From NCBI GenBank assembly GCA_016191815.1, contig JACPVI010000057.1, positions 1 to 64,000 of the forward strand: DNA of 64,000 bases, written 5' to 3'. The DNA is from Myxococcales bacterium. Its GTDB lineage: Bacteria > Myxococcota > Myxococcia > Myxococcales > Myxococcaceae. The notes below the pieces were generated by a model. The model was not told where the DNA came from and searched no databases. It saw only the letters and a list, made by a program, of their open reading frames with translations. Shown here piece after piece: positions 33,360-52,494 of this stretch (position 1 is the stretch's first letter; every line of letters starts with the position of its first letter). Both the position numbers and the translations under genes were made by a program.

Positions 33360-35723
33360 ATGCAGCTTGACCAGGAAGCCCACGGCTCTCCCCCGGGCCG
33401 GTTCGAGAGCGCGGTGACGGCCATCGCCGGCGCGCTGGACCAGCTTCCCGCCGCTGCTTGGGCCACCGACCGCCAGCTCCGCATCCGCTTTTGCCTCGGG
33501 CGCGCGCTCGAGCGGGTGGGCGTCCGCTCCTCCGATCTCCTCGGGCGCACCGTCGATGAGCTGGTGCAGGACCAGGGGCACGCCTCCGAGTTGCTCGAGG
33601 CCCACCGCCGCGCGCTCGAAGGGGAGCTGCGGCGATGCGAGTGCTCCTTCCGGGGGAGGGTTTTCGAGGTCCAGGTCGGGCCCTTTCGCGACGAGGCGGG
33701 GGAGCTGGCAGGCTGCCTCGCCGCGCTCTTGGACGTGACCGAGCGAAAGGCTGCCGAGGAAGCAAGTCGCACCGCCGCCCGGCGGATGGCCGAGGCCGAG
33801 CGCGTCGCGGGGGTCGGAAGCTGGGAGTGGGACCCGCACGCCAACCGAGTGGTGTGGACGGAAGAGCTGCACCGGCTCCATGGGCTCAGGCCGGGAGAGT
33901 TCGCCGGCACCTACGAGGCCTTCCTCGAGCGCGTCCACCCCGACGACCGGGAGTCGGTGGGGCGGGGCGTCGCCCAGGCGCTGGAACGTCCCGGCCCGTT
34001 CTCGTTCGAGCACCGTACGGCCTGGCCGGACGGCACGGTGCGGATCCTCTCGGTGCGCGGCGACGTCCTCTGCGACTCGGAGGGCCGGCCGGTCCGGATG
34101 ATCGGCGCCTGCCACGACATCACCGACAGGAGGAAAGCCGAGCAGGCGAGGGAGCGGGCGCTCTCGCTGCTCCAGGCCACTCTCGAGTCGACCGCGGATG
34201 GAATCCTGGTGGTCGACCGGCAGGGAAAGTTCGCGAGCTACAACGAGCAGTTCGCCACCATGTGGCGGATCCCCCGGGAGATCCTCCTCGCGGGAGACGA
34301 TGCTCGAGCGCTGGACTACGTGCTCTCCCAGCTCGTGGACCCGCAGGGATTCTTGCGGAAGGTCCAGCAGCTCTACGGCGAGCCCGAGGCCGAGAGCTTC
34401 GACGTGCTCAGGTTCGGGGACGGGCGCGTCTTCGAGCGGCTCTCCAAGCCCCAGCGTACAGGGAGGGAGATCGCCGGGCGAGTGTGGAGCTTCCGAGACG
34501 TCACCGAGCGGCGGCGAGTGGAGGCTGAAAGGGACCGCCTGCTCATCGCCGAGCGCGAGTCTCGCCTGGCCACCGAGCAGGCTGCCGACCGGTCTACGCT
34601 CTTGGCGGATGCGAGCCGCCTGCTTGCGTCCTTGGACCTCGAGGGCGCGCTCTCGGGAGCGGCCTGCCTCCTGGTGCCGCGATTCGCCGACTGGTGCGTG
34701 GTGGACATCGCCGAGGTCGACGGAGGGAGCCGGCGCCTGACGGTCGGCGTGGAGCCCGGCAAGAAAGACCTCGCCCAACAGCTCGAGCAGCGCCCGGAAG
34801 AGCCGATCGGCCCCCGCAGCGAGCTGGTGCGGGAGATCGGCCATCGCTCCAGCCGCGCGGTGCCGCTGGCGGTCGGCGGCCGGAAGGTCGGGACGCTCAC
34901 CTTGGTGCTCGCGGGCGAAGAACGCGCGCTGGGCCCCGAGGATCTCGCCATGCTGCAGGATCTCGCCGGGCGAACCGCGCTCGCCGCCGAGAACGCCCGG
35001 CTCTACCGGCGGCTCCAAGAGGCCCTGCGCGCCCGCGACGAGTTCCTCTCCATCGCCTCGCACGAGCTGCGCACGCCGCTCTCCTCGCTGTACCTGGCGG
35101 TGCAGGCCCTGGCCCGGTCCGAAGCGGAGCCCCGCACCTCCGCCGGCGGCGCGCTGTCCTCCCGCAGGCTCCTCGCCACCGTCCAGCGGCAGGCGAGGCG
35201 CCTGGAGAAGCTGATCGACGAGATGCTCGACGTCACCAGGCTCCAGGCGGGACGGGTAGATCTCGAGTCCGAGGAGTTGGACCTCGTCGAGCTCGCGCGG
35301 GAGGTGGTCGCCCGCTTCGAGCCGGAGGCCGAAGCCGCCCACACCGAGGTGCGGATCCTGGCCCGCGAGGCGGTGGTGGGACAGTGGGACCGCTCGCGCC
35401 TCGATCAGGTCATCTCCAACCTGCTTTCCAACGCCATTCGCTACGGCGAGAAGAAACCGGTGGACGTCTCGGTGGAACGCTGGGGTGACCGCGCGGTGCT
35501 CCAGGTGGTGGATCGGGGGATCGGAATCTCCCCAGAGCGGCTCCCGTACATCTTCGACCGCTTCGAGCGCGCCGTCTCCCCGCGTCACTACGGCGGCCTG
35601 GGGCTCGGCCTGTACATCGCCAGCCGCCTGGCGTCGCGGATGGGAGGCAGCCTGGCCGCCCGTAGCGAGCTGGGAAAGGGGTCCACCTTCACGGTGGAGC
35701 TTCCCATCGCGCGTGCGCAGTGA
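33360..35723 (+). CDS. PAS-PAS-PAS-GAF sensor histidine kinase
   Basis: A 787-residue cytoplasmic kinase. Three PAS units (about residues 20-130, 150-260 with GSWEWDPHANRVVW, and 270-390) are followed by GAF (about 400-545), HisKA with IASHELRTP and HATPase (NLLSNAIRYG, DRGIGIS, GLGLGLYIASRL). No membrane segment is visible. It is first in a four-gene overlapping operon: its stop overlaps the GTG start of the corrinoid-binding gene (GTGA). No receiver gene is in the operon, so its partner is elsewhere. The context suggests a signal tied to corrinoid or one-carbon metabolism. Confidence 0.9.
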   Translation: MQLDQEAHGSPPGRFESAVTAIAGALDQLPAAAWATDRQLRIRFCLGRALERVGVRSSDLLGRTVDELVQDQGHASELLEAHRRALEGELRRCECSFRGRVFEVQVGPFRDEAGELAGCLAALLDVTERKAAEEASRTAARRMAEAERVAGVGSWEWDPHANRVVWTEELHRLHGLRPGEFAGTYEAFLERVHPDDRESVGRGVAQALERPGPFSFEHRTAWPDGTVRILSVRGDVLCDSEGRPVRMIGACHDITDRRKAEQARERALSLLQATLESTADGILVVDRQGKFASYNEQFATMWRIPREILLAGDDARALDYVLSQLVDPQGFLRKVQQLYGEPEAESFDVLRFGDGRVFERLSKPQRTGREIAGRVWSFRDVTERRRVEAERDRLLIAERESRLATEQAADRSTLLADASRLLASLDLEGALSGAACLLVPRFADWCVVDIAEVDGGSRRLTVGVEPGKKDLAQQLEQRPEEPIGPRSELVREIGHRSSRAVPLAVGGRKVGTLTLVLAGEERALGPEDLAMLQDLAGRTALAAENARLYRRLQEALRARDEFLSIASHELRTPLSSLYLAVQALARSEAEPRTSAGGALSSRRLLATVQRQARRLEKLIDEMLDVTRLQAGRVDLESEELDLVELAREVVARFEPEAEAAHTEVRILAREAVVGQWDRSRLDQVISNLLSNAIRYGEKKPVDVSVERWGDRAVLQVVDRGIGISPERLPYIFDRFERAVSPRHYGGLGLGLYIASRLASRMGGSLAARSELGKGSTFTVELPIARAQ

Positions 35724-36433
35724 GTGTTCGCGCCTCGACACTCGTACCCGCGCATGCTACGCCGCCGCTTCCCAGTGAGGGGTGGACTGTGCTGGCGCTC
35801 GAGCAGGGCCGATTTGAATTGGAGAAGGCCCTGCTCTCTCTGGACCGGCTGTCGGCGAGAGAGCTGATGCGCAATGCGTCCGCCGCCCATGCGCCGGCTG
35901 CGCTGGCCGAAGCGCTGATCGCGCCGACGCTCGAGCACCTGGGCGCAGCCTGGCAGCAAGGCACCGTGGCGCTCTCGCAGGTCTACATGGCCGGCCGGAT
36001 CTGCGAGGAGCTGGTGGACGAGTTCTTCCCCAAGGACGCCGCTGAGCGCCGGGCGGGGCCCAGGATGGCGATCACTGTCCTCGAGGACCACCACGAGCTG
36101 GGCAAGCGCATCGTCTACTCTTTGCTCCGGGCGAGCGGGTTCGAGTGCGCCGACTATCGGCGTCAGACGGTGGCGGAGTGCTCGGCCCGCGTCGCCGGCG
36201 AGGGGATCGAGCTGTTGCTCGTCTCCACGCTGATGCTCCCCTCGGCGCTCAAGGTGCGGAGCCTGCGCGAACGGCTGGCGGCCGTTGGCTGTGGCGCGAA
36301 GATCGCCGTGGGTGGCGCGCCGTTCCGCCTGGACAGCGAGCTGTGGAAGGAGGTGGGGGCCGACGCGACGGGAGCCACCGCCTCGGATGCGCTGGCGCTC
36401 GCCGCCCGGTTCTCCGCGGAGGGAGCAAGATGA
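35720..36433 (+). CDS. corrinoid (B12)-binding protein
   Basis: A 237-residue protein of the methyltransferase corrinoid-protein type. A helical cap domain (about 30-105) precedes a Rossmann-like B12 domain with the base-off motif DxHxxG (Asp123, His125, Gly128 in LEDHHELGKR). A later Gly-rich strand, KIAVGGAPF, fits the nucleotide-tail site. It should carry cobalamin with His125 as lower ligand, either as a methyl carrier for the adjacent UroD/MtaA-like protein or as a sensor module. The start and stop overlap both neighbours (GTGA and ATGA). LitR-like light sensors use the same fold but carry a DNA-binding domain, which is absent here. Confidence 0.85.
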   Translation: MSVRASTLVPAHATPPLPSEGWTVLALEQGRFELEKALLSLDRLSARELMRNASAAHAPAALAEALIAPTLEHLGAAWQQGTVALSQVYMAGRICEELVDEFFPKDAAERRAGPRMAITVLEDHHELGKRIVYSLLRASGFECADYRRQTVAECSARVAGEGIELLLVSTLMLPSALKVRSLRERLAAVGCGAKIAVGGAPFRLDSELWKEVGADATGATASDALALAARFSAEGAR

Positions 36434-37485
36434 GCGGCGGCGAAGTCACCTCCCTGGAGCGGGTGAAGAAGGCCCTCTCCGGGGCGCAGCCTGACCGGAT
36501 CCCGGTGGTGCTGCCGCTCACCATGCACGGCGCGCGGGAGGTGGGCCTGCCCATCCGCGAGTACTTCGCCAAGCCGGAGAACGTGGCGGAGGGCCAGCTC
36601 CGGCTCCACCGGCGCTACGGAAGCGACGCCCTCACCAACTTCCACTACGCCGCCCTGGAGCTGGAGGCGTGGGGAGGCGAGGCCCTCTTCCGCGAGGACG
36701 GGCCGGCCAACGCCGGGGCGCCGCTCGTCCGCCGGCTGGAAGAAGTGGCGAAGCTGGAACCCCCGAAGGTGGCCGACTGCCCTTGCCTGGGGAGGGTGCT
36801 CGAGGCCACCCGGATGCTCCGCCAGCGCGTGGGCGGCGACGTCCCGATCCTGGGGCTGGTGGTGTCGCCGTTTTCCTTGCCCGCGTTGCAGCTCGGCTTC
36901 GAGCGGTACCTGCAGCTCCTCTGCGAGAGGGATGACCTCCTCCCCCGGCTGCTCTCGGTCAACGAGGAGTACAGCGTGGAGTGGGCCAACGCCCAAGTCG
37001 CCGCCGGCGTCGACGCGATCGGCTACTACGATCCGGTCTGCTCGGCGACCATCATCCCCCCGGAGATGTTCAGGGGGACCGGCCAGGGAGCGGCGGAGCG
37101 GACCTTGAGCCGGATCCGCGCTCCGGCGGTGACGCTGGTGGGCGCCGGGCGCTGCCTGCCGATCATCGACGGCCTCGCCCGGACCGGCACTCGAGGGCTT
37201 CTGGTCGGACCGGCCGAGGAGCTGCGCGAGGTGAAGGCGGCAACTTCCGGGAAGCTCGCGCTCCTGGGCGACCTCAACAGCGTGGAGATGAGGCGCTGGG
37301 ACCACGCCCGGGTAGAGGCCGAGGTGAAGCGCGCCATCTCCGCCGCCGGTCCCGGAGGCGGCTTCATCCTCTGCGACGGCAGCGGCGAGGTGCCTTGGCA
37401 GGTGCCGGAGGAGGTACTGCTGGCGATCGTCGAGGCCGGCAAGAGGTGGGGCAGATACCCGCTCGACTGGATCGAGCGTGCCTGA
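36430..37485 (+). CDS. UroD/MtaA-like methyltransferase-fold protein
   Basis: A 351-residue TIM-barrel protein of the uroporphyrinogen decarboxylase/MtaA/CmuA superfamily: SLERVKKALSGAQPDRIPV at the N-terminus, LELEAWGGEALF and GVDAIGYYDP strands, and GLLVGPAEEL near the end. Family methyltransferases bind zinc through an HxC pair and a late Cys. At the HxC position (about residue 234) it has TLVGAGRC, and the late site reads CDGSGEVP, so the ligands look substituted. It may be a corrinoid-linked sensor or an atypical methyltransferase. It overlaps the corrinoid gene before it and the kinase gene after it. Confidence 0.8.
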   Translation: MSGGEVTSLERVKKALSGAQPDRIPVVLPLTMHGAREVGLPIREYFAKPENVAEGQLRLHRRYGSDALTNFHYAALELEAWGGEALFREDGPANAGAPLVRRLEEVAKLEPPKVADCPCLGRVLEATRMLRQRVGGDVPILGLVVSPFSLPALQLGFERYLQLLCERDDLLPRLLSVNEEYSVEWANAQVAAGVDAIGYYDPVCSATIIPPEMFRGTGQGAAERTLSRIRAPAVTLVGAGRCLPIIDGLARTGTRGLLVGPAEELREVKAATSGKLALLGDLNSVEMRRWDHARVEAEVKRAISAAGPGGGFILCDGSGEVPWQVPEEVLLAIVEAGKRWGRYPLDWIERA

Positions 37486-39727
37486 GCCCGCCGCCATACT
37501 GGTGTGCGAGCACTTCTTCGGCGAGGCCCAGGCCATCGTCCGGGAGAAGAAGCTGGGCCAGGTCGACCTGGTGCCCCTGCCGTGCGCGGACGCCGAGGCG
37601 AGGTCGGCCACGCTCCACGCCCTCTCCGGCCGGCGGATCGACGTGCTCGCCGGGTGCCGGCCGATCCCCAGCGGGCCCTGGCCCCCAGCGTGCCGGTTCC
37701 ACCTCACCCAATCCTGCTTCGACCTGGTGCTCGACGGCCGGCTGATCGAACAGCATGTCCGCGCCGGCGCTCATCTGGTGACTCCGGGCTGGCTGGCCGG
37801 TTGGCAGCGCCACGTCCAGCGGTGGGGGTTCGACCGCGAGGGCGCGCGGGAGTGCTTCCGGGAGTTCGCCAAGAAGCTCCTTTTGCTCGACACCGGGGTC
37901 GACCCCCGCTCCGCGGAGCGCCTGAGCGAGCTCTCCGAGTTCTTGGCGCTGCCCTCCGAAGTCCAGCAGATTGGCCTCGAGCTGCTCGAGCTGCGCCTGC
38001 GCGCAGTCCTCCTCCAGCGGCAGCTGGATTCTTCGATGGAGCGCACCACCGCGGCGGTCGCCGGTGACTTCCGGAAGGTCGCCGAATACGCCATCTCGCT
38101 GGACCTGGTCAGCCGGCTCGCCCGCCCGATGGTCGAGAAGGAGGCGGTGGAGGCGGTCTTCGAGGCCTTCTCCATGCTGTTCGGCCCAGGGAAACTGGCC
38201 TGGCTCGCGGTGGTCGACGGCGCGCCTGGCCGCATGATCGCCCGACCGGACGAGGGCGCCGATGCGCACGCGCTGATCTCCAACCTGGGCGGGCCGGATT
38301 CGTCCACCGCCTCCGCGCTGATCGACGGCGGCTTCGCCCTCCGGGTGGAGCACGCCGGCGAGACGTTGGGCATCTTTGAAGTCTCTCGCCTCGCGGTGCC
38401 GGAGCGCGTGCACGACTACCTCAACCTCGCGCTCACCTTGAGCGGAGTGTGCGGCCTGGCGATCTCCAACGCCCGCGGTATGGAGCGCCGCGAGCGGGAC
38501 AACCACTTCAAGCGCTTCCTCGGCGAGGCCCAGGCCGAGCTGGGCGCCTCTCTATCGATGGAGACCGTGCTCAGGCGCGCGGCCGAGCTCTTCGTGCGGC
38601 GAATGGCCGACGCCTGCGCGCTCGACGTGATCGCCGAGGGCTCCGCCCCCAGGCATGTCGTGCAGAGCCTCGGGGTCGGCCCTCTGTGGGCGCTCCCGGC
38701 CCGGCCCGATGACGCCACGCACCCGGTGGGAGAGGCGATCCTCACTGGCCGAGCGGTGCTCGTCCGGGAGTTGGCCGGCTGGGAACCGAGCAAGAAGGCC
38801 CTGCTCGGCGACGGCCGCTTCGCCTCGCTCATCATCCTGCCGCTCGAAGTCGGCGGCCGGAGGTTCGGGGCGCTCTCCCTCGCGGTGGCGGGCAGGCGCT
38901 ACGATGCAAGGGACCTCGCGGAGGCCGAGGAGCTGGCCCAGCGATCGGCGCCGGCGATCGAGAACGCCCGGCTGTATGAGCAGGCCGCCAGGGCGGTGCA
39001 GGAGCGCAACGACTTTCTCTCCGCCGTCTCTCACGATCTCAAGAACCCTCTCACCGCGATCAGGCTGTGGGCGGACCGAGTGTCCCGCCGCGCCGCGAAG
39101 TCCGGCAGCTCGGACGCCGAACGCCTCACCGGCGACTCGGACCTGGTCGGCCGGCAAGTCACCCGGATGTCGCGGATGGTCGATGAGCTGCTCGACTTCG
39201 CTCGGCTCCAGGTGGGCAGGCCCTTGGACCTCCTCCGCTCGCGAACGGATCTGGTCGCGCTGGTACGCCAGGTGGCTCGCGACCAGCAGAATTTGACCTC
39301 TCGGCACCGCATCGTGCTCGAAGAGAAGGCCCCTGCGCTCGTGGGGGAGTGGGACCCGGCCAGGCTGGAGCGCGCCCTGATCAACCTGGTCTCCAACGCG
39401 GTCAAGTACAGCCCGGAGGGAGGACAGATTTCGATCGCCCTGTGGCGGGAAGAGTCGGGCGAGTCTGGGTGCGCGCGGGTGGAGATCTCCGATCAGGGCC
39501 TGGGCATCGCCGAGGAGGATCTCCCCCACCTCTTCGAGCCCTTCCGAAGGGGGAAGAACGCGAAGGGGATCTCCGGCTCCGGCATCGGCCTGGCCAGCGC
39601 GCGCCATGTGCTCTCGGAGCACAGGGGCCGGCTGGAGCTGTCCAGCGGGGAAGGCAGAGGCACCACCGTTTCGGTGACCCTGCCGCTCTCGAGCGGCCCT
39701 CTGCCCAGCGGGGAGAGGGAAGGGTGA
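37478..39727 (+). CDS. DUF1638-like/GAF sensor histidine kinase
   Basis: A 749-residue kinase. Residues 1-190 form a Cys-rich domain (Cys10, 36, 60, 72, 80 and 116) resembling DUF1638, a family I associate with corrinoid methyltransferase genes. Signature stretches are FHLTQSCFDLVL and GAHLVTPGWLAGWQ. Two GAF-like regions (about 225-350 and 365-510), HisKA (VSHDLKNPLTAI) and HATPase (NLVSNAVKYS, DQGLGIA, GSGIGLASARHV) follow. The start overlaps the UroD-like gene by 8 nt. The C-terminal PSGEREG tail is encoded by a dispersed repeat. Fusion of this domain to a kinase implies sensing of corrinoid or methyl-group state. Confidence 0.8.
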   Translation: MPEPAAILVCEHFFGEAQAIVREKKLGQVDLVPLPCADAEARSATLHALSGRRIDVLAGCRPIPSGPWPPACRFHLTQSCFDLVLDGRLIEQHVRAGAHLVTPGWLAGWQRHVQRWGFDREGARECFREFAKKLLLLDTGVDPRSAERLSELSEFLALPSEVQQIGLELLELRLRAVLLQRQLDSSMERTTAAVAGDFRKVAEYAISLDLVSRLARPMVEKEAVEAVFEAFSMLFGPGKLAWLAVVDGAPGRMIARPDEGADAHALISNLGGPDSSTASALIDGGFALRVEHAGETLGIFEVSRLAVPERVHDYLNLALTLSGVCGLAISNARGMERRERDNHFKRFLGEAQAELGASLSMETVLRRAAELFVRRMADACALDVIAEGSAPRHVVQSLGVGPLWALPARPDDATHPVGEAILTGRAVLVRELAGWEPSKKALLGDGRFASLIILPLEVGGRRFGALSLAVAGRRYDARDLAEAEELAQRSAPAIENARLYEQAARAVQERNDFLSAVSHDLKNPLTAIRLWADRVSRRAAKSGSSDAERLTGDSDLVGRQVTRMSRMVDELLDFARLQVGRPLDLLRSRTDLVALVRQVARDQQNLTSRHRIVLEEKAPALVGEWDPARLERALINLVSNAVKYSPEGGQISIALWREESGESGCARVEISDQGLGIAEEDLPHLFEPFRRGKNAKGISGSGIGLASARHVLSEHRGRLELSSGEGRGTTVSVTLPLSSGPLPSGEREG

Positions 39728-42817: not shown

Positions 42818-44587
42818 TTGATCAGGGACCCGCTCGAAGACGAAACCAGGATCATCGAGGCCCGGCCGCCGCGACCGGTGAGGCTGCAGCTCTTGGTCTT
42901 CTCCCAGAGCGTCGCCACCTACCCCTTGCCCGCCCAGGGCTCGGTGGTGCTCGGCCGCTCCGGCAGCGCGCGGATCCGGATCGAAGATCCTTCGGTCTCG
43001 CGCGAGCACGCCCGGCTGCACATCGGCGAGACGTTGGAGGTCGAGGACCTTGGCAGCGCGAACGGCACCTGGCTTCGCCAGGAGCGGCTGGCCCCGGGGC
43101 GCCGCTACGAGCTCGCGCCGGGCGACACCGTCGACCTCGGGGCGGCGATGGTGATGGTGCAGAAGGTGACCTCGGCGGTGGCGCGGCCGCGGCGGCTGTG
43201 GAACCACGGCTACTTCGAGGCCAGGGTGGAGGACGAGTGCGCCCGGGCGGAGCGCTCCGGAGGCGCGTTCGCGGTGGTGCGGGTGCACCTCGAGGGCGGC
43301 CTCTCCTCTGAGGTGCAGGACTCGGTGATGGGCCAGCTTCGCCCGGCCGACCTGGTGGCCGCCTACGGCCCCGACGAGTACGAGCTCATGCTGGTGGAGG
43401 CGCCCAAGGCAGTGGTGGAGAAGATCCTCTCACGCATCGCCGAGCAGCTCTCGCAAAAGAAGCGCCGGGTCCGCTTCGGGGTGGCGATGTACCCGGCCGA
43501 TGCCCGCTCGCCGGAGGCGCTGATCGCCAAGGCCTGCGACGGAGTGAGGCCGGCGCCGCCGCGGAAGGCCGGGCTGCCGGACGAGCTGGTGATCGAGGAT
43601 CCGGCGATGCGGCGGCTCTACCAGGTGGCCGAGCGGGTGGCGACCAGCGACATCAACGTGCTGCTGTTGGGCGAGACCGGCTCGGGCAAGGAGGTGCTGG
43701 CCGAGTGGGTACACCAGCGCTCGCCAAGGCGGGACAAGCCGCTGCTCAGGCTCAACTGCGCCGCGCTGACCGACTCGTTGGTGGAGAGCGAGCTGTTTGG
43801 CCACGAGAAGGGCTCGTTCACCGGCGCGGTGCAGACGAAGATCGGCCTGTTGGAGAGCGCCGAGGGCGGCACGGTGTTCCTCGACGAGATCGGCGAGCTG
43901 CCCATGCAGAGCCAGGGGAAGCTGCTCCGGGTGATTGAAGACCGGAAGCTGATGCGCATCGGCGGACTGACGCCGCGGGCGATCGACGTGCACTTCTTGT
44001 CGGCGACCAACCGGGACCTGGAAGCGGAGGTGGCCCGGGGCGCCTTCCGGCAGGATCTCTACTTCCGGCTGGCCGGGATCTCGCTCGCCATTCCGCCCTT
44101 GCGCGAGCGCGCGGGGGAGGTCGAGCGGCTGAGCGCGGTCTTCGTGGCGCAGGCCTGCCGGCGCGCCGAGCGGACGGAGGCGCCGGTCGTCTCCACCGAG
44201 GCGATGCGGTTGCTCACCGGCTACTCGTGGCCGGGGAACATCCGCGAGCTGCGAAACGTGATTGACCGAGCGGTGCTGTTGTGCACGGACGGGGAGATTC
44301 GCCCCGAGCACCTGCCGCTCGAGAAGATGGGCACCACGATGATCGTTCCGGGAGCGCCGAAGGCGAGCCCCGCGGGAGCCGCGGCGGCCGTCGCCAGAGC
44401 TGCTGCCACCGCCGCGAAGCCCTCGTCGCCGCCCGGAGGGGAAGACGCCGAGCGCCGGCGGGTGGTGGAGGCGCTGGACCACTGTGCCGGGAACCAGACC
44501 CGGGCGGCGAAGCTACTCGGCATCTCGAGGCGGACGCTGGTCACCCGGCTCGACCGGCTGGGGTTGCCGCGGCCGCGGAAGCGGTGA
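42818..44587 (+). CDS. sigma-54 activator with FHA and degenerate GGDEF domains
   Basis: A 589-residue regulator. The FHA domain (about 20-115) has LGRSGSARIRIEDPSVSREH and DLGSANGTW, so it should bind phosphothreonine. Residues 125-250 look like a GGDEF fold in which the signature reads GPDEY, so cyclase activity is unlikely. The AAA+ domain has GETGSGKE, GSFTGA and TVFLDEIGE, and a Fis-type HTH (NQTRAAKLLGISRRTL) ends it. It links Ser/Thr kinase signalling to sigma-54 promoters. A TTG start sits behind GGGGGAG. I do not know the FHA-GGDEF-like-AAA+ order from described regulators. Confidence 0.88.
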   Translation: MIRDPLEDETRIIEARPPRPVRLQLLVFSQSVATYPLPAQGSVVLGRSGSARIRIEDPSVSREHARLHIGETLEVEDLGSANGTWLRQERLAPGRRYELAPGDTVDLGAAMVMVQKVTSAVARPRRLWNHGYFEARVEDECARAERSGGAFAVVRVHLEGGLSSEVQDSVMGQLRPADLVAAYGPDEYELMLVEAPKAVVEKILSRIAEQLSQKKRRVRFGVAMYPADARSPEALIAKACDGVRPAPPRKAGLPDELVIEDPAMRRLYQVAERVATSDINVLLLGETGSGKEVLAEWVHQRSPRRDKPLLRLNCAALTDSLVESELFGHEKGSFTGAVQTKIGLLESAEGGTVFLDEIGELPMQSQGKLLRVIEDRKLMRIGGLTPRAIDVHFLSATNRDLEAEVARGAFRQDLYFRLAGISLAIPPLRERAGEVERLSAVFVAQACRRAERTEAPVVSTEAMRLLTGYSWPGNIRELRNVIDRAVLLCTDGEIRPEHLPLEKMGTTMIVPGAPKASPAGAAAAVARAAATAAKPSSPPGGEDAERRRVVEALDHCAGNQTRAAKLLGISRRTLVTRLDRLGLPRPRKR

Positions 44588-44836: not shown

Positions 44837-45769
44837 CTACGTCACCTCGGCGACGCGCAAGAGCCGCAGCTTTCTCCACAGCATTTCCCAGAGCCGCGCC
44901 GAAGACTTCGCGATGACGAGGATCGCGTGACGTTCGTGGACCAGCACGCGGGCTGCCACTCGCAGCACGCGCTCGCGGAAGCGCTTCATGCTCCAGCCGT
45001 CGCCAGTGGCGGTCTCGAGCATCACCCTCGCGGCGTGGACCACCTGGTAGGCGAGGACGTTGAGGAGCAGGAGCACTTCGTTCTGCTCGAAGGAGTCGCC
45101 GGATGGGAAGCGCGTTTCGGGCTCCTCGCCGCGGTAATGGCTCTTGGGGCGAGGCGAGGAGGAGAGCGCCGGCTGCAGGACGCTCATCAGCTCCCCCATG
45201 TGCCCCTCCGCGGTGCCGCGCTGACGGTACATCTCGAGGAGCGCCGCGCCGGTCATCTGTGAGGGCAGCCAGTTGGTGATGAGCCAGAAGTGGTGGAGGA
45301 ACAGCTCCTCCTCGCGCTCGAGGACGACCAACACCACCCTGCGCGCATGGCTCCAGTCTTTCGCCTGGTAGTTCATCTCGTAGAGCCAGGTGCGGGGCTC
45401 GTTCGGCGGCCTGCCCACGGGCCGGTTCAAGAATGGCAGGGCCATCTTGTCGAGGACCGGGTTGTTCTTTACCCGAGCCACGTAGGGCGTCTGCCGCTGT
45501 TCGAGCATCGAAAGCAGCTTCTCCTCGGGGAAGCCCGCGTCGATGCGCACCGCCGCCACCTGGCACAAGTCGCGCTCGACGCGGTCGAGCAGCTGCGGGA
45601 TGAACTCCAGCGCTCCGTCAGCGGTGTGGACGTTGCCCGGACGAAGCCACGCGTCGATGAGGTCGCCCGTCTCGGCCACGCTCGCGATGAGTGGGTGGTA
45701 GATGCGAGCGTGGTAGTGCCCATTGTGCTCGGAGATCGGCGCGTCTTTTCCTTTCCTGCCGCCCCTGCG
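44837..45769 (-). pseudogene. IS1380-family transposase, 5'-truncated
   Basis: The open frame covers about 310 codons and begins without a start codon. The N-terminal region is lost, but EHNGHYHARIYHPLIASVA and GNVHTADGALEF near the new 5' end match the IS1380 DDE core, as do VRIDAGFPEEKLL (second catalytic Asp) and YRQRGTAEGHMGEL (Glu region). The first catalytic Asp is missing, so the product should be inactive. The nearest internal start is at 45679. Confidence 0.8.
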
Positions 45770-46897: not shown

Positions 46898-48511
46898 TCA
46901 CGGCACGCACGAGAGCGCCTGGGAAGGAAGGAGGAAATGCACGCCCTCCGACTCCAGCGGCCCGAGCGCGGCCGCGAGCTCCGCGGCGGGGTTCGACCAG
47001 GCAGAGGCGCTGAGGAAGAGCACCGGCGGCCGCTCCGCCTCCGGGCGCCGGGCGATCTCCCTTATCCGCCCGGCGATCGCCGCCGGAGTGTCGTCGTAGC
47101 TCCCCGACGCCACCAGCACCGGCAGCCCGCCCGAGGTACGGAAGGCCGAAGGCCCTCCGATGCCGAAGTATCCCAGCAGCACCCCCGAGGGATGCCCCTC
47201 CACCGCGAGGCGGGACATGAGCGACCAGGTGGCCGCGGTGGAGTTGCCGTAGAGATCCGGATCCAGGCTCCAGAAGGTGAAAAGCCCGCCGTCGCGCATC
47301 CGCTCGAAGCTCTGGGAGAAGAAGAAGCGCCGGTCCGGGTAGAAGCCGGAGTAGGCGTAGCCGACTCCGAGCATCGCCACCCACTCGTCGCGGTCCGACG
47401 CGGTGCTCAGGTAGTAGTGGGCCGCGCCCGGGGCGAGTGCCCGCAGGGCGAGTGACAAGCTCCAGCCCAACGGCAGTGTCCCGCGCGACTCCGAGCGCCA
47501 GAAGCTGGTCCAGGCGAACCGGTTCAGCGGAAGCGCCAGATTGTCCCCGTCGCTGATGGCGAGCACGACGTTGAGGTCTCCCTGGCGGCAGGGCGGATCG
47601 GCCGCGGGGATGGGCTTCGCGCGCGGCGGCGAGGCGGGCACCACCGAGAGGTGGAAGGAGAGGTTCGGCGTGGTGTCGGTGGGGATGAGGAACTTCCCCG
47701 CCTCGGAGAGGGCCTTCACCGCCCCCAGCTCCTCCAGTCCTGTGAGCGCGACGTACCCGTAGACGGGGAGGTTCCCCGGCGTCTGGCGGAGGATCTCGGT
47801 CACCGCCGGCCACTCCTCGGTGGTCGGCCGGCCGTAGATGGTGACCACCCCCTGCTGCACCAGGAAGTCCCTCAGGCGGTATTGCTCGGGAGAGAGGATG
47901 CCCAGCCCGCGGTGCGGCATCTTGGGGTACCACTGGGACATCAGCTCCCGGTAGCAGGACGAGGCGTCCTTCCAGCGGCCCACCATCGAGTCGAGCTGGG
48001 GCACGCCGGCGGATTCCAGCAGCGCGCGCTCGGACTCGAAGGCCACCACCGCGCCCTCCACGGAGGCGACGGTGGTGGCCGCGTTGATCGTCCAGGGCTC
48101 CGACCGAGAGGCCAGGACGTAGCCCTTCACCTCGCCGGAGAAGCGCCGGACCAGCTCCTCCACGCCCCCCTCCCACTCGCGCCGAAGCCCTGCCTCCTGC
48201 TCGTACCAGGAGAGCCAGAACTCGTTCGCCTCGCGCTCGGAGGTCGTCTCCCAGGAGCGGTCGCCGGTCGGCTCACCGTCGAGCACGAAGATCCGGGCCT
48301 CGGTGCCGTTGACCACTCCCTGGAGGGTGGAGGCGAGCACCTTCCGCTCGAAGGTTTCCCCCGCGAGATCCACCACCGACGCCCCTCCGAGCGGAGGGCG
48401 GCGCGAGAGGTACAGGCCGTCCATCGAGGGAGGTGGAGCCGGCGGCCTCGGGCAGGCGATCAGGCATGCGGCGAGGCTGCCCCACAGCAGTCGAAGGCCG
48501 GGGTGGGTCAT
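46898..48511 (-). CDS. GxGYxYP-family lipoprotein
   Basis: A 537-residue lipoprotein (lipobox LIAC). It has the eponymous motif GVGYAYSG followed by FYP at about residue 380, and ISDGDNLAL before it, as in GxGYxYP proteins that have been proposed, not proved, to be glycoside hydrolases. An N-terminal domain (about 35-290) precedes the motif domain. Its start overlaps the stop of the giant kinase gene (ATGA), so a surface or periplasmic carbohydrate-linked protein is made together with a cytoplasmic regulator. Confidence 0.75.
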   Translation of the reverse strand: MTHPGLRLLWGSLAACLIACPRPPAPPPSMDGLYLSRRPPLGGASVVDLAGETFERKVLASTLQGVVNGTEARIFVLDGEPTGDRSWETTSEREANEFWLSWYEQEAGLRREWEGGVEELVRRFSGEVKGYVLASRSEPWTINAATTVASVEGAVVAFESERALLESAGVPQLDSMVGRWKDASSCYRELMSQWYPKMPHRGLGILSPEQYRLRDFLVQQGVVTIYGRPTTEEWPAVTEILRQTPGNLPVYGYVALTGLEELGAVKALSEAGKFLIPTDTTPNLSFHLSVVPASPPRAKPIPAADPPCRQGDLNVVLAISDGDNLALPLNRFAWTSFWRSESRGTLPLGWSLSLALRALAPGAAHYYLSTASDRDEWVAMLGVGYAYSGFYPDRRFFFSQSFERMRDGGLFTFWSLDPDLYGNSTAATWSLMSRLAVEGHPSGVLLGYFGIGGPSAFRTSGGLPVLVASGSYDDTPAAIAGRIREIARRPEAERPPVLFLSASAWSNPAAELAAALGPLESEGVHFLLPSQALSCVP

Positions 48512-51500
48512 CCTTTCTCGATCCTAATCCGAAGGAGGTCCAGCCGTTTTCCCCAGTGGGGGAGCTCCGAGGCTGCCTCCAACGCTTCCCCCAGGAACGA
48601 TGCGGCAGCGGCCCTTCGGCCCCAGAGGGGGGCCGCGTCGGCGGCGTGACAGAGCACCTCCACCAGAGCGTCGGAGGAAAAACCGCTCTCGCGCGCGGAG
48701 CGCACCAAGTCCTTCCACGCGGCGTCCTCGGCCGGGTTGGCCAAGCAAAGCTCGAGCATGCGCGCCCAGAGGTGGTTCGACGGGGAGAGGGTGCAGTGGG
48801 CGGCCACGAAGTCGAGCAGCGGCCGGATTTCGCTCCGCTCCCCCTCGGCCGCCAGGATTCGCCCTACCAGCAGAGCGTCGTCCGGGGGGTGCCGCCCGTA
48901 GAACCGCAGCTCCAGCTCCCGGGCCCTCCGGGCGGCGATCAGCGCCTGAGCCAGCTCGTCGCTCCACAGCAACAGCTCTGCGAGGTTGAGCTGGGCGGTT
49001 CGCTCGAGCTGCGCATGCCCCAGCTCGCGGGCCAGCTCCACCGCGCGGCGCAGGTCCTCGAGGCCGCGGTGCCGGTCCTTCCGCTGCCACAGGAGCACTC
49101 GATTGCCGTAGGCGGTGCAGAGGTGGAAGCGGTCCCCGGTGCGCTCGCAGAGATCAATCACCTCCTCGAAGGTGCGCTCGGACTGGTCGATGCGCTCCAA
49201 GACTGCGAGCGACGGCGAAAGCAGCAGGAGCGAAATCACCCGCGCCTCGTGATCGCCCAGCGCCGCCGCCTGGTCAGCGGCGGCGCGCAGGGGTCCGACG
49301 CACTCGGAAAAGCGCTCCGAGCGGACCAGCGCACGGCCGCGGGCCAGCAGGCACCGTGCCGCGAGGCGCGGATCTCCCAAGGGTTGCGCGACCGCTTCGG
49401 CCTGGGCGGCGGCGCGCTGCGAGCCTGCCCAGTCGAAGGACCAGTCGAGCAGGGTTGCCTCCTCGAGCAGGAGGTCGGCGGTGAGCGCGGCGTCCGCCTG
49501 TGACTCGGCAATCCTTCGGGCGGCGCGAACGTCTTCAAGCGCTTCCTCCATCCGCCACAAGCGGTAGCGCACCCCTCCGCGTCCGGACCAGGCCTGGCAC
49601 CGGAGCGTCTGTTCACCGGGTGGCAGGTGGGCGAGCGCGCTCGTGTAGTGCGCCTCGGCCTCGACGTAGCGGTGGCGCCTTCGGGCATCGTCGCCTAGCT
49701 GGAGGTAGCCCATGGCGGCCGCGCGTTGCTCACCGCACTCGGACGCGTGGCGCGATAGGCGGGCGAGCTCCGAGCCGGTGAGCGGGCGCCTCCCGGCCAA
49801 CCCGTGGAAGGCGGCCACGTGCAGGCGCCGCCGGAGGTCTGCGGGCGTCCGGCGCTCGATGGCCAGCCGAAGCATCGGGTTGGGGAGCTCGAAGTGCCCG
49901 TTCCCCGTTCTCCGCAACACCCGCCGCTGCGCCAGCCTGGAGAGGCCGACCTCGACATCGAGTCGCTCGCCTCCATCTTTCGCGCGGAGGAACCGCTGCA
50001 CCCGCTCTACCTCGTCGAGGTGCAATGGATCGGCCAGCACCGCGCACAGCTGCGCCAGTTCCACCAGGAGGGGGGTCAGCCCCCCCAGAGTGATGTCCGC
50101 GAGGCGGTCGGCGGGCGAGGCGATCGCCGAAAGATTGTTCAGCTCCTCGACGGGGAGGTGCCAGGCTTCCGCGCCCGCGAGGCGGCGGATCGCGCCAGCC
50201 GCCTTCAGCGCCTCCACCAGGTCCACCAGTAGGCCCGGCACCCGCTGGGTCGATTCGAGCAGACGTTTCACCACCGGTTCGGCCAAGAACTCCACTGGCT
50301 GGATCAGCTCGAGCAGCAGGGTGCGGGCGTCGGCCTCCTCGAGCGGAGCCATCTGGTGGGAGTGTGCCACTCGTGCCCGCTCTCCCCACGATGGCCTGAG
50401 AGCTCGGAGCTCCGCCCGCGCGCAGACGCAGATCCAGAGGGGACGGCGTGGGCCGCCCATGGTTGCCAGCTCGACCGCGTCGAGCAAAGCAGCGTCGGAG
50501 GATTCGGCATCGTCCAGGAGGAGGCCGACCGGCTCCCGCTCCGCAAGCCGCCGGAGTCCCGCTGCGATCGCGCGCGCCAGCGAGTGCCTGAGCGCTCCAG
50601 GCGCATCCACTGGACGCGCCTGGCCGAGCGTCCCCTCATCGGACAGGCCCATCGCCAGCGCCACCGCTGGCCAGGCCGCGTCCAGCTCGGGGCCGAGAGC
50701 ACTGGCACAGGTGCGACGCACCTCATCGATGCCGGCAGTCGGCCGCAGCCCCAGCGCCAGCGACACGGCTTCTCGCAGCATGTCCTCACGGCCGGCGCGC
50801 GGCGCCGCCAAGCCAGGAGCGAGGAGCACACATTGGTCCTTGAGGGAACCGCGCAGCTCGGCGAGCAATCGGGTCTTGCCGAGCCTCGAATCCCCCACGA
50901 CGGTCGATAGCGCCGGCGAGCCGTGCGTCCAGGCGGCCACGGCCTCATCCTTCAGCCGGCTCAACAGCGCGTCCCGGCCTTGCAGCGATGCCGTCCGAGT
51001 GGAGCCCGAGTCACCGTGCGTCGAGAGGGGGGCGTGGAAGCGCGCTTCTTGATCGAGAGCGGTGGTCTGTTCCCGGCAGTGCGCTGCGGCTTCGGACGTC
51101 AGGCAGATGGGCGCGATGGGCGGCTCGCTCGGACACCAGTCCCGGAAGCCGTCGATCGCTGTCCCCAGCACCTGAGTACCCCGGTTGCCGGTCCTGACGC
51201 GGACCTCGGCGGTGTGGATGGTCGCCGCCGTAGCGAGCGGACCCAGCCGCCGGGCGGCCCTGAGGGCCGAGCGCACTCCCGCCTCCGGCGTCGCGACCTT
51301 CGTGAAGGCCACCACCGCCCGCTCCCCCTCGGCGCGCGCGACGACGCCGCCCTCGAGCGCAAGCATCTCCACCATGGTCTCCAAAGGTCCGTGCGCGGTG
51401 AAGGCCAACAGGCCGGCCCAGCCTTGTGACTTCGTCGCCCGCGCAGTCGGTCGAGAGCTCGAAGAGTGGCCGGAGGCCCGAACCTCGAACGCGGCGTCCA

Positions 51501-52494
51501 GCCGGTCCGCGATCTCGATCGCGCTGACAGGTCTCCGGACTGGGTCCTTGGCGAGGCAGGCGAGCACGACTTCATCGAGAGAGGGCGAGGGCGCCAGTCC
51601 CATCGCTGCGGCCACCTCCGAGGGGGCTGGCGGTTCGAGGAGCAGGTGGGCGTGCTCGACGCGCGCGTCTTCGCCCACGAATGGCGGACGGCCGGCGAGC
51701 AGCTCGAACAGCATGACGCCGAGCGCGTAGAAGTCTGCGGTGGTGCCAATCCGATCCTGGGCGCGCCACTGCTCGGGGGCCATGTACGCTGGCGTGCCCG
51801 GCCGCTCACCGATGCGACTCGCCCTGCGGCTGTTGGCCGGAAGAGGTAGGTCTTCGAGCAATCGGCAAACCCCGAAGTCCAGCAGCGCGACTCGCATCGG
51901 GAGCCTTGGCCCCCCGGCCACCGTCTCCTCCGATTGACCCCCGCCGCTGGGGCGCAAGGTCAGAGTTACTCCGGAGCCCACCGGCGCCTCGCACAGGAAG
52001 ACGTTCTCGGGCTTCAGGTCGCCGTGGGCGATGCCCGCGCGGTGCATGGCCTCGACCGCGCTGCAAAGCGGGCGGAAGATCCGCGCCGTCTCCCGCGGGG
52101 CAAGTGCGCCTTCGGGCGACCCGACGAGGCAATCTGCGAGAGTCTGACCCCAGAGCCGCTCCATCACCAGCACCGCCTCGCCGGAGCGAGTTCGCTCCTC
52201 GCCGAGCAGATGCGGAGAGTGGGGCGGTCCCAGCCGGCGCATCGCCTGGGCTTCCCGGGCCAGCCGGTCTTGGAATCCCGCCCGGAAAACCTTGAGCGCT
52301 ACCTCCGAGCCATGCTCCACGCCGCGCGCCGAGTACACCGTCGCGAATCCGCCCTCGCCCAGCAGCTCGAGGGCGGAGTATCCGTGGATCTCCGGCAGCG
52401 GCACTCCGACCGCCTCCCGGGAAACCTCCATGGTGGGGTGGCGAGGGCACGCTCGTCCCGGCGCGACGCGTCGATGGCAGCTTGGGCAGCGCAT
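48508..52494 (-). CDS. giant Ser/Thr kinase with ATPase and TPR domains
   Basis: 1328 residues. A Cys/His N-terminus (MRCPSCHRRVAPGRACPRHP) looks like a small zinc site. A kinase domain (about 38-310) follows, with LGEGGFATVY, VALKVF, HGDLKPENV, DFGVCRL and APEQW. Then come a cyclase-like degenerate region (about 325-490), an ATPase with Walker A GDSRLGKT near residue 535, and TPR-like helices to the end. Without a transmembrane segment it is a cytoplasmic signalling hub. The HGD for HRD change is common in active bacterial kinases. The ATG at 52494 is chosen at the zinc motif. Confidence 0.85.
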   Translation of the reverse strand: MRCPSCHRRVAPGRACPRHPTMEVSREAVGVPLPEIHGYSALELLGEGGFATVYSARGVEHGSEVALKVFRAGFQDRLAREAQAMRRLGPPHSPHLLGEERTRSGEAVLVMERLWGQTLADCLVGSPEGALAPRETARIFRPLCSAVEAMHRAGIAHGDLKPENVFLCEAPVGSGVTLTLRPSGGGQSEETVAGGPRLPMRVALLDFGVCRLLEDLPLPANSRRASRIGERPGTPAYMAPEQWRAQDRIGTTADFYALGVMLFELLAGRPPFVGEDARVEHAHLLLEPPAPSEVAAAMGLAPSPSLDEVVLACLAKDPVRRPVSAIEIADRLDAAFEVRASGHSSSSRPTARATKSQGWAGLLAFTAHGPLETMVEMLALEGGVVARAEGERAVVAFTKVATPEAGVRSALRAARRLGPLATAATIHTAEVRVRTGNRGTQVLGTAIDGFRDWCPSEPPIAPICLTSEAAAHCREQTTALDQEARFHAPLSTHGDSGSTRTASLQGRDALLSRLKDEAVAAWTHGSPALSTVVGDSRLGKTRLLAELRGSLKDQCVLLAPGLAAPRAGREDMLREAVSLALGLRPTAGIDEVRRTCASALGPELDAAWPAVALAMGLSDEGTLGQARPVDAPGALRHSLARAIAAGLRRLAEREPVGLLLDDAESSDAALLDAVELATMGGPRRPLWICVCARAELRALRPSWGERARVAHSHQMAPLEEADARTLLLELIQPVEFLAEPVVKRLLESTQRVPGLLVDLVEALKAAGAIRRLAGAEAWHLPVEELNNLSAIASPADRLADITLGGLTPLLVELAQLCAVLADPLHLDEVERVQRFLRAKDGGERLDVEVGLSRLAQRRVLRRTGNGHFELPNPMLRLAIERRTPADLRRRLHVAAFHGLAGRRPLTGSELARLSRHASECGEQRAAAMGYLQLGDDARRRHRYVEAEAHYTSALAHLPPGEQTLRCQAWSGRGGVRYRLWRMEEALEDVRAARRIAESQADAALTADLLLEEATLLDWSFDWAGSQRAAAQAEAVAQPLGDPRLAARCLLARGRALVRSERFSECVGPLRAAADQAAALGDHEARVISLLLLSPSLAVLERIDQSERTFEEVIDLCERTGDRFHLCTAYGNRVLLWQRKDRHRGLEDLRRAVELARELGHAQLERTAQLNLAELLLWSDELAQALIAARRARELELRFYGRHPPDDALLVGRILAAEGERSEIRPLLDFVAAHCTLSPSNHLWARMLELCLANPAEDAAWKDLVRSARESGFSSDALVEVLCHAADAAPLWGRRAAAASFLGEALEAASELPHWGKRLDLLRIRIEKG

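Follow-up and report, generated by a model that had tools for sequence, protein, structure and literature searches.

A corrinoid protein and a UroD-family barrel as a candidate sensory input module with interchangeable signalling outputs

Within the window, the whole 64,000-nucleotide stretch of Myxococcales DNA analysed here, adjoining genes encode a corrinoid-binding protein, a UroD-family barrel and a histidine kinase with a DUF1638-GAFx N-terminus, and this three-gene unit recurs across bacteria and archaea. That the module is a sensor is well supported. We consider it probable (roughly 0.6) that the UroD and corrinoid proteins form a sensory input module that arose from a corrinoid methyltransferase, with the state of the cobalt read by DUF1638-GAFx. 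What is sensed would be a methyl donor, the corrinoid state or another cue. The features on which the argument draws are as follows.

33360..35723, + strand: HK1, PAS-PAS-PAS-GAF-HisKA-HATPase sensor histidine kinase (Pfam), a partner particular to the window and outside the conserved core
35789..36433, + strand: corrinoid-binding protein of 214 aa, B12-binding_2 cap plus B12-binding domain (Pfam; TIGR02370, 68.7 bits)
36086..36103, + strand: DHHELG, the DxHxxG lower-ligand motif (alignment of homologues)
36430..37485, + strand: UroD-family TIM barrel of the type I sensory clade (PF01208, E 1.2e-48; tree)
37135..37137, + strand: Leu236 of the window UroD, mostly His in homologues (80/87, alignment) and the first Zn ligand in MtaA
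37381..37383, + strand: Ser318 of the window UroD, mostly His in homologues (83/87, alignment); the third Zn ligand of MtaA is Cys
37478..39727, + strand: HK2, output protein of the module, a kinase with the architecture DUF1638-GAFx-GAF-HisKA-HATPase (Pfam, GAFx profile)
37478..38041, + strand: DUF1638 domain with four conserved Cys, two-lobed alpha/beta (Pfam; model pLDDT 94)
38069..38488, + strand: GAFx, a conserved GAF-fold domain missed by Pfam, aa ~198-337 (model, profile scans)
38552..38962, + strand: ordinary GAF_2 of HK2, aa 359-495 (Pfam)
39005..39691, + strand: HK2 transmitter, HisKA aa 510-578 and HATPase_c aa 626-738 (Pfam)

An earlier note on this DNA had described a plus-strand set of four genes overlapping by 4-8 nt. 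All four are present, and the PAS/GAF kinase at their head is confirmed by Pfam, which gives HK1 three PAS domains and a weakly scoring GAF besides HisKA and HATPase_c; an antisense ORF put there by a simple gene caller was rejected, as these matches show HK1 to be real. The overlaps of the corrinoid gene with UroD (4 nt) and of UroD with HK2 (8 nt) stand, whereas that claimed between HK1 and the corrinoid gene (4 nt) is doubtful. It requires the upstream start at GTG 35720 and a product of 237 aa, the length given in the note. The start is probably GTG 35789, because the resulting 214 aa fits the length of homologues (206-216 aa) and a GAGGGG motif lies shortly 5' of it, which leaves a gap of about 65 bp after HK1. 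Both HK1 and HK2 carry HisKA with the phospho-acceptor His together with HATPase_c (Pfam), and ASHELRTP and VSHDLKNP are the H-boxes in the two translations. As the note had stated, no receiver domain was detected by Pfam in the four genes or the neighbouring ORFs scanned; HK1 would probably feed, or share, the same unlinked response regulators as HK2. Elsewhere in the window are an FHA-sigma54 activator-HTH_8 regulator without a receiver domain, 3' of a transglutaminase-like gene (42818-44587, +), a putative GxGYxYP glycoside hydrolase (46898-48424, -) and a Ser/Thr kinase with AAA_16 and TPR (48508-52431, -). A DDE transposase (44837-45679, -) less than 6 kb from the module is compatible with mobility of the region.

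Conservation of the gene set was assessed by a scan for UroD only, with a query built from four UroDs, across about 85,000 species genomes, and the best 80 loci were read. Their UroDs are 46-56% identical to that of the window and, by record titles, span about 12 phyla, including methanogenic archaea as the archaeal hosts and, among bacteria, Pseudomonadota, Thermodesulfobacteriota, Myxococcota, Chloroflexota, Spirochaetota, Actinomycetota, Verrucomicrobiota, Lentisphaerota, Bacillota, Bacteroidota and Riflebacteria. A corrinoid gene lies directly upstream of UroD in the same orientation in 80/80 of these loci, and in 79/80 its end is no more than 30 nt from where UroD starts. The gene directly 3' of UroD encodes DUF1638 in 66/80 and GAFx in 77/80; of the three loci without GAFx, one lies at the end of its contig and another is truncated. 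The C-terminal parts of these downstream proteins differ. When the window protein and 79 others were tallied with Pfam (some of those with no output domain assigned are cut by contig ends), DUF1638 was found in 65 of the 80, HATPase_c in 41, HisKA in 37, GGDEF in 21 and Response_reg in 12, with Hpt (4), EAL (1) and SpoIIE (1) rarer. Since outputs vary behind it, DUF1638-GAFx is an input unit to which exchangeable outputs are attached, and this swapping of outputs behind a fused DUF1638-GAFx is the strongest evidence for signalling.

Neighbourhoods of the module loci held no other gene family that recurs across lineages. The gene at the position of HK1 varies or is absent in L038-L043 and L045-L124, and HK1 was dropped as a core member. 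The conserved unit is therefore the corrinoid gene, UroD and the DUF1638-GAFx signalling gene, not the four-gene set with two kinases proposed in the earlier note. Co-conservation, which the note had made one of two tests of its proposal, holds for these three genes far beyond Myxococcota and fails for HK1; the sensing idea itself is strongly supported by the physical fusion of DUF1638-GAFx to outputs such as kinases and diguanylate cyclases.

Within Myxococcota, three close UroD homologues (43-47% identity) occur, spread over two genomes from a related genus and a single genome from a different family, and DUF1638 adjoins UroD or its corrinoid gene at all three. L038 has DUF1638::kinase followed by REC-HDOD and REC-HD, and a REC-HDOD gene lies 5' of the corrinoid-UroD-DUF1638 trio in L040. 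GAFx was also searched alone, blind to its neighbours, in 195 Myxococcota and 141 Geobacter-order genomes. It was found in 4/195 Myxococcota genomes, at exactly the four UroD loci, and in 20/141 of the Geobacter order, always adjoining UroD and DUF1638; these 20 genomes alone in that order hold a UroD above 500 bits, the next group reaching at most 245 bits. Thus all 24 GAFx copies were beside UroD and none was found away from the module in the 336 genomes of the two clades, using a profile built from module members and so biased towards them. The Myxococcota copies do not group in the UroD tree, and this, with the patchy distribution (4/195), fits horizontal transfer without proving it.

The second group of UroDs in the Geobacter order (type II; 213-245 bits, 25 genomes, 17 loci read) has a layout of its own. 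The order corrinoid protein, UroD, DUF1638, signalling protein was seen in 16/16 loci readable there (L187-L203), the signalling protein being nearly always a histidine kinase, often hybrid, with DUF1638 separate and GAFx absent. These UroDs have none of the zinc ligands of MtaA. Loci L041-L043 of Myxococcota are similar, with hybrid kinases. There are thus two related sensory lineages, type I, to which the module of the window belongs, and type II. One type II corrinoid protein (L041:8863-10284) is extended at its N-terminus by about 230 residues that Pfam does not recognize. Type I also has variants. GAFx occurs without DUF1638 in L057, L059, L070, L071, L085, L090 and L110, six from Desulfotignum and the last from Chloroflexota, and in these seven short proteins a tail with a Cys motif, e.g. 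SHCKKVRDD-GYW, replaces the kinase; large hybrid kinases lie near most of them. L050 has a tandem pair of corrinoid-UroD-DUF1638 sets with a RACo gene 5'.

The Cys-rich, DUF1638-like N-terminus that the earlier note had recognized in HK2 matches PF07796 at 31.7 bits (aa 78-171), above the curated cut-off of 27, so that the other test set by the note is passed as well. Its cysteines C10, C36, C60 and C80 (codons at 37505, 37583, 37655 and 37715) are conserved in the family and in the model sit at the ends of successive strands, an arrangement in keeping with a metal or iron-sulfur site. Foldseek returned no clear solved structural relative of the model (best E 7e-3); weak matches (VIA) were to a receiver domain (Z ≤7.9) and, over 160 residues, to the PrpR sensor domain (2pju; 7.5). 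The adjoining GAFx is predicted to have a GAF fold (pLDDT 88), and its top Foldseek matches are mostly GAF domains. In Phaeobacter inhibens, genes for DUF1638 and a RamA-like protein are both needed for B12-dependent methionine synthesis, tying DUF1638 genetically to this synthesis and to reactivation, although no function was proposed for it (PMC5764234), and in Ruegeria DUF1638 is co-induced with RamA (PMC12478193). Together these observations link DUF1638 to corrinoid proteins.

The UroD of the window is a full-length URO-D barrel with MtaA/CmuA (TIGR01463) as its best NCBIfam match, at 106.2 bits against a cut-off of 235.4. Zinc in MtaA is held by His, Cys and Cys (His-x-Cys ... Cys) and activates the thiol acceptor. 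Type I UroDs have His-Ala-His in place of this triad (T-H-x-A-S-G ... D-N-H-G-E-I-P), with H236, A238 and H318 occupied in 80/87, 81/87 and 83/87. At these positions the window UroD carries Leu236, Gly238 and Ser318, and no other type I member lacks both His. The earlier description of a UroD/MtaA-like barrel thus holds for fold and nearest family; a standard MtaA-type zinc enzyme was dropped, since the zinc triad is absent. Loss of the zinc ligands argues against a thiol acceptor and not against methyl transfer, because CdmB, of the same superfamily, is a zinc-free methyltransferase that charges a corrinoid protein (PMC13222342). With its short tree branch (0.18), the window UroD does not give the impression of a gene in decay. 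Without both family histidines, this copy may bind without turnover, or its ligand may differ.

A working methyltransferase of corrinoid protein and UroD, with the kinases merely linked regulators or co-regulated, would account for the descent of these genes from the MtaA/CmuA group. It would also account for relatives that keep the H-C-C triad and sit in metabolic operons with a B12 protein and RACo (L044, L136, L137, L138 and L156). Against such an operon, the corrinoid-linked DUF1638 is fused into signalling proteins, outputs switch among kinase, GGDEF, EAL and SpoIIE, no metabolic neighbour gene recurs, and RACo/RamA is absent from the source genome. We regard it as improbable. RACo is likewise missing from 12/20 module genomes checked. 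The only other B12-binding_2 protein of the source genome is a MetH with an activation domain, so that the module, for which these searches gave no second methyltransferase-like corrinoid pair in this genome, does not depend on RamA-type reactivation and is not part of a RACo-dependent pathway. A corrinoid-UroD-RACo operon in Thiorhodococcus (L139, G207) has the triad H-T-C, intermediate between the metabolic and sensory sites.

The corrinoid protein bears on two further readings. The earlier note's B12-binding protein with an intact DxHxxG is borne out: PF02607 and PF02310 both score above cut-off, and DxHxxG, S-x-L and GG are all kept. The D, H and G of DxHxxG are present in 86/86 homologues readable there (87 aligned, one cut off), and S169, L171 and G198-G199 are nearly invariant among the 87. 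A B12 light sensor, in which light breaks an alkyl-cobalt bond and the kinase reads the change as in CarH or photocobilins, might be suggested by the cap Trp, W78, conserved in 83/87 homologues, and by several phototroph hosts (Thiocapsa, Thiocystis, Heliophilum). Many hosts are non-phototrophic, however, and come from sediment or groundwater, and the methyltransferase corrinoid proteins (TIGR02370), the best NCBIfam match although under its cut-off of 215.3, score 68.7 bits against 36.4 for CarH. CarH and LitR have a Glu-His pair after the cap Trp. This pair is replaced by V-Y in the window protein, with Y in the second place in 84/87 homologues, and Pfam finds only B12 domains and no HTH DNA-binding domain. 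On these two grounds a CarH-type DNA-binding photoreceptor was rejected, and since light sensing of any kind would also leave the obligate UroD partner unexplained, we judge it distinctly improbable. Quite unlikely, too, is a sensor of tetrapyrrole supply in which the UroD barrel, the B12-type domain or both bind haem or porphyrinogen. The UroD family does bind tetrapyrroles, and the family His318 aligns with a conserved His of HemE-like rows, but the cobalamin motifs are retained and the window UroD scores only 39.6 bits against HemE, far under the NCBIfam cut-off of 302.95.

We therefore favour the sensory module, in which binding of the corrinoid, methyl transfer and contacts between the proteins, all of them predicted, might be combined as follows. 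The ligand of the UroD barrel would be a small molecule, probably a donor of methyl or alkyl groups, bound close to the corrinoid in the B12 protein, and the cobalt would thereby change its state (methylated, Co(I), Co(II) or occupied). DUF1638, whose four cysteines probably form a metal-bearing pocket, would dock on the corrinoid protein and pass the cobalt state via GAFx to the kinase or other output. Because some loci keep GAFx only, DUF1638 cannot be the sole reader. A stronger version, which we put forward tentatively, is sensing by catalysis: a methyl donor would react or bind at cobalt and the resulting state would be sent via DUF1638-GAFx to kinases or diguanylate cyclases, in an undescribed class of sensors widespread in bacteria and archaea. 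Without RACo there is no evident source of Co(I), so that readout by catalysis may not be possible, and passive readout of redox state or ligand is more likely. For the window copy, the missing RACo and the lost histidines make binding or redox state a likelier signal than repeated catalysis.

Full-text searches of the open-access literature returned no prior description of a UroD and corrinoid protein combined with a kinase or GGDEF protein, in agreement with the earlier note, which knew of no such system, and no report of DUF1638 in signalling. Several known systems share parts of it. MtaC/MtaA-type pairs, such as the mlp clusters of Kountz and Balskus, likewise have side-by-side genes for a UroD barrel and a cap/Rossmann corrinoid protein; their paper on the type 1 mlp cluster deals with relatives in metabolism, and its text makes no reference to a sensor, a signal, DUF1638 or GGDEF (PMC10418091). 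The module differs from MtaA/CmuA in its triad, its signalling outputs and the lack of RACo in the operon. CdmB, MtvB, OdmB and MtoB share the UroD fold, and CdmB methylates a corrinoid protein without zinc, but these enzymes are catabolic, only some are zinc-free, and no fused kinases are described; regulation of the 26 methyltransferase systems of one acetogen is largely unexplored (PMC13222342). DUF1638 of Phaeobacter and Ruegeria also works with a B12 protein and a RamA-like partner, but is stand-alone and metabolic, without GAFx or kinase (PMC5764234, PMC12478193). CarH/LitR and photocobilins also use a cap and B12-binding fold for sensing, but are light-driven, lack a UroD partner and have DNA-binding or other outputs. 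Orphan PAS/GAF histidine kinases of Myxococcota resemble HK1 and the output half of HK2 without the DUF1638-GAFx input. We rate the input module as the new part; the outputs fused to it are ordinary two-component or c-di-GMP components.

Little is known of how microbes detect methylated one-carbon compounds or the state of their own corrinoids, and the module offers a concrete candidate for such a sensor. It occurs in cultivated hosts, among them Geomonas, Thiocapsa, Zoogloea and Heliophilum. DUF1638, known so far in the open-access literature searched from mutant phenotypes and expression only, gains a second context, and GAFx constitutes a new GAF subfamily that marks the module. If the proposed reading is true, an enzyme pair has been re-used as an interchangeable sensory front end; and if sensing proceeds by catalysis, vitamin B12 would itself be the sensing element.
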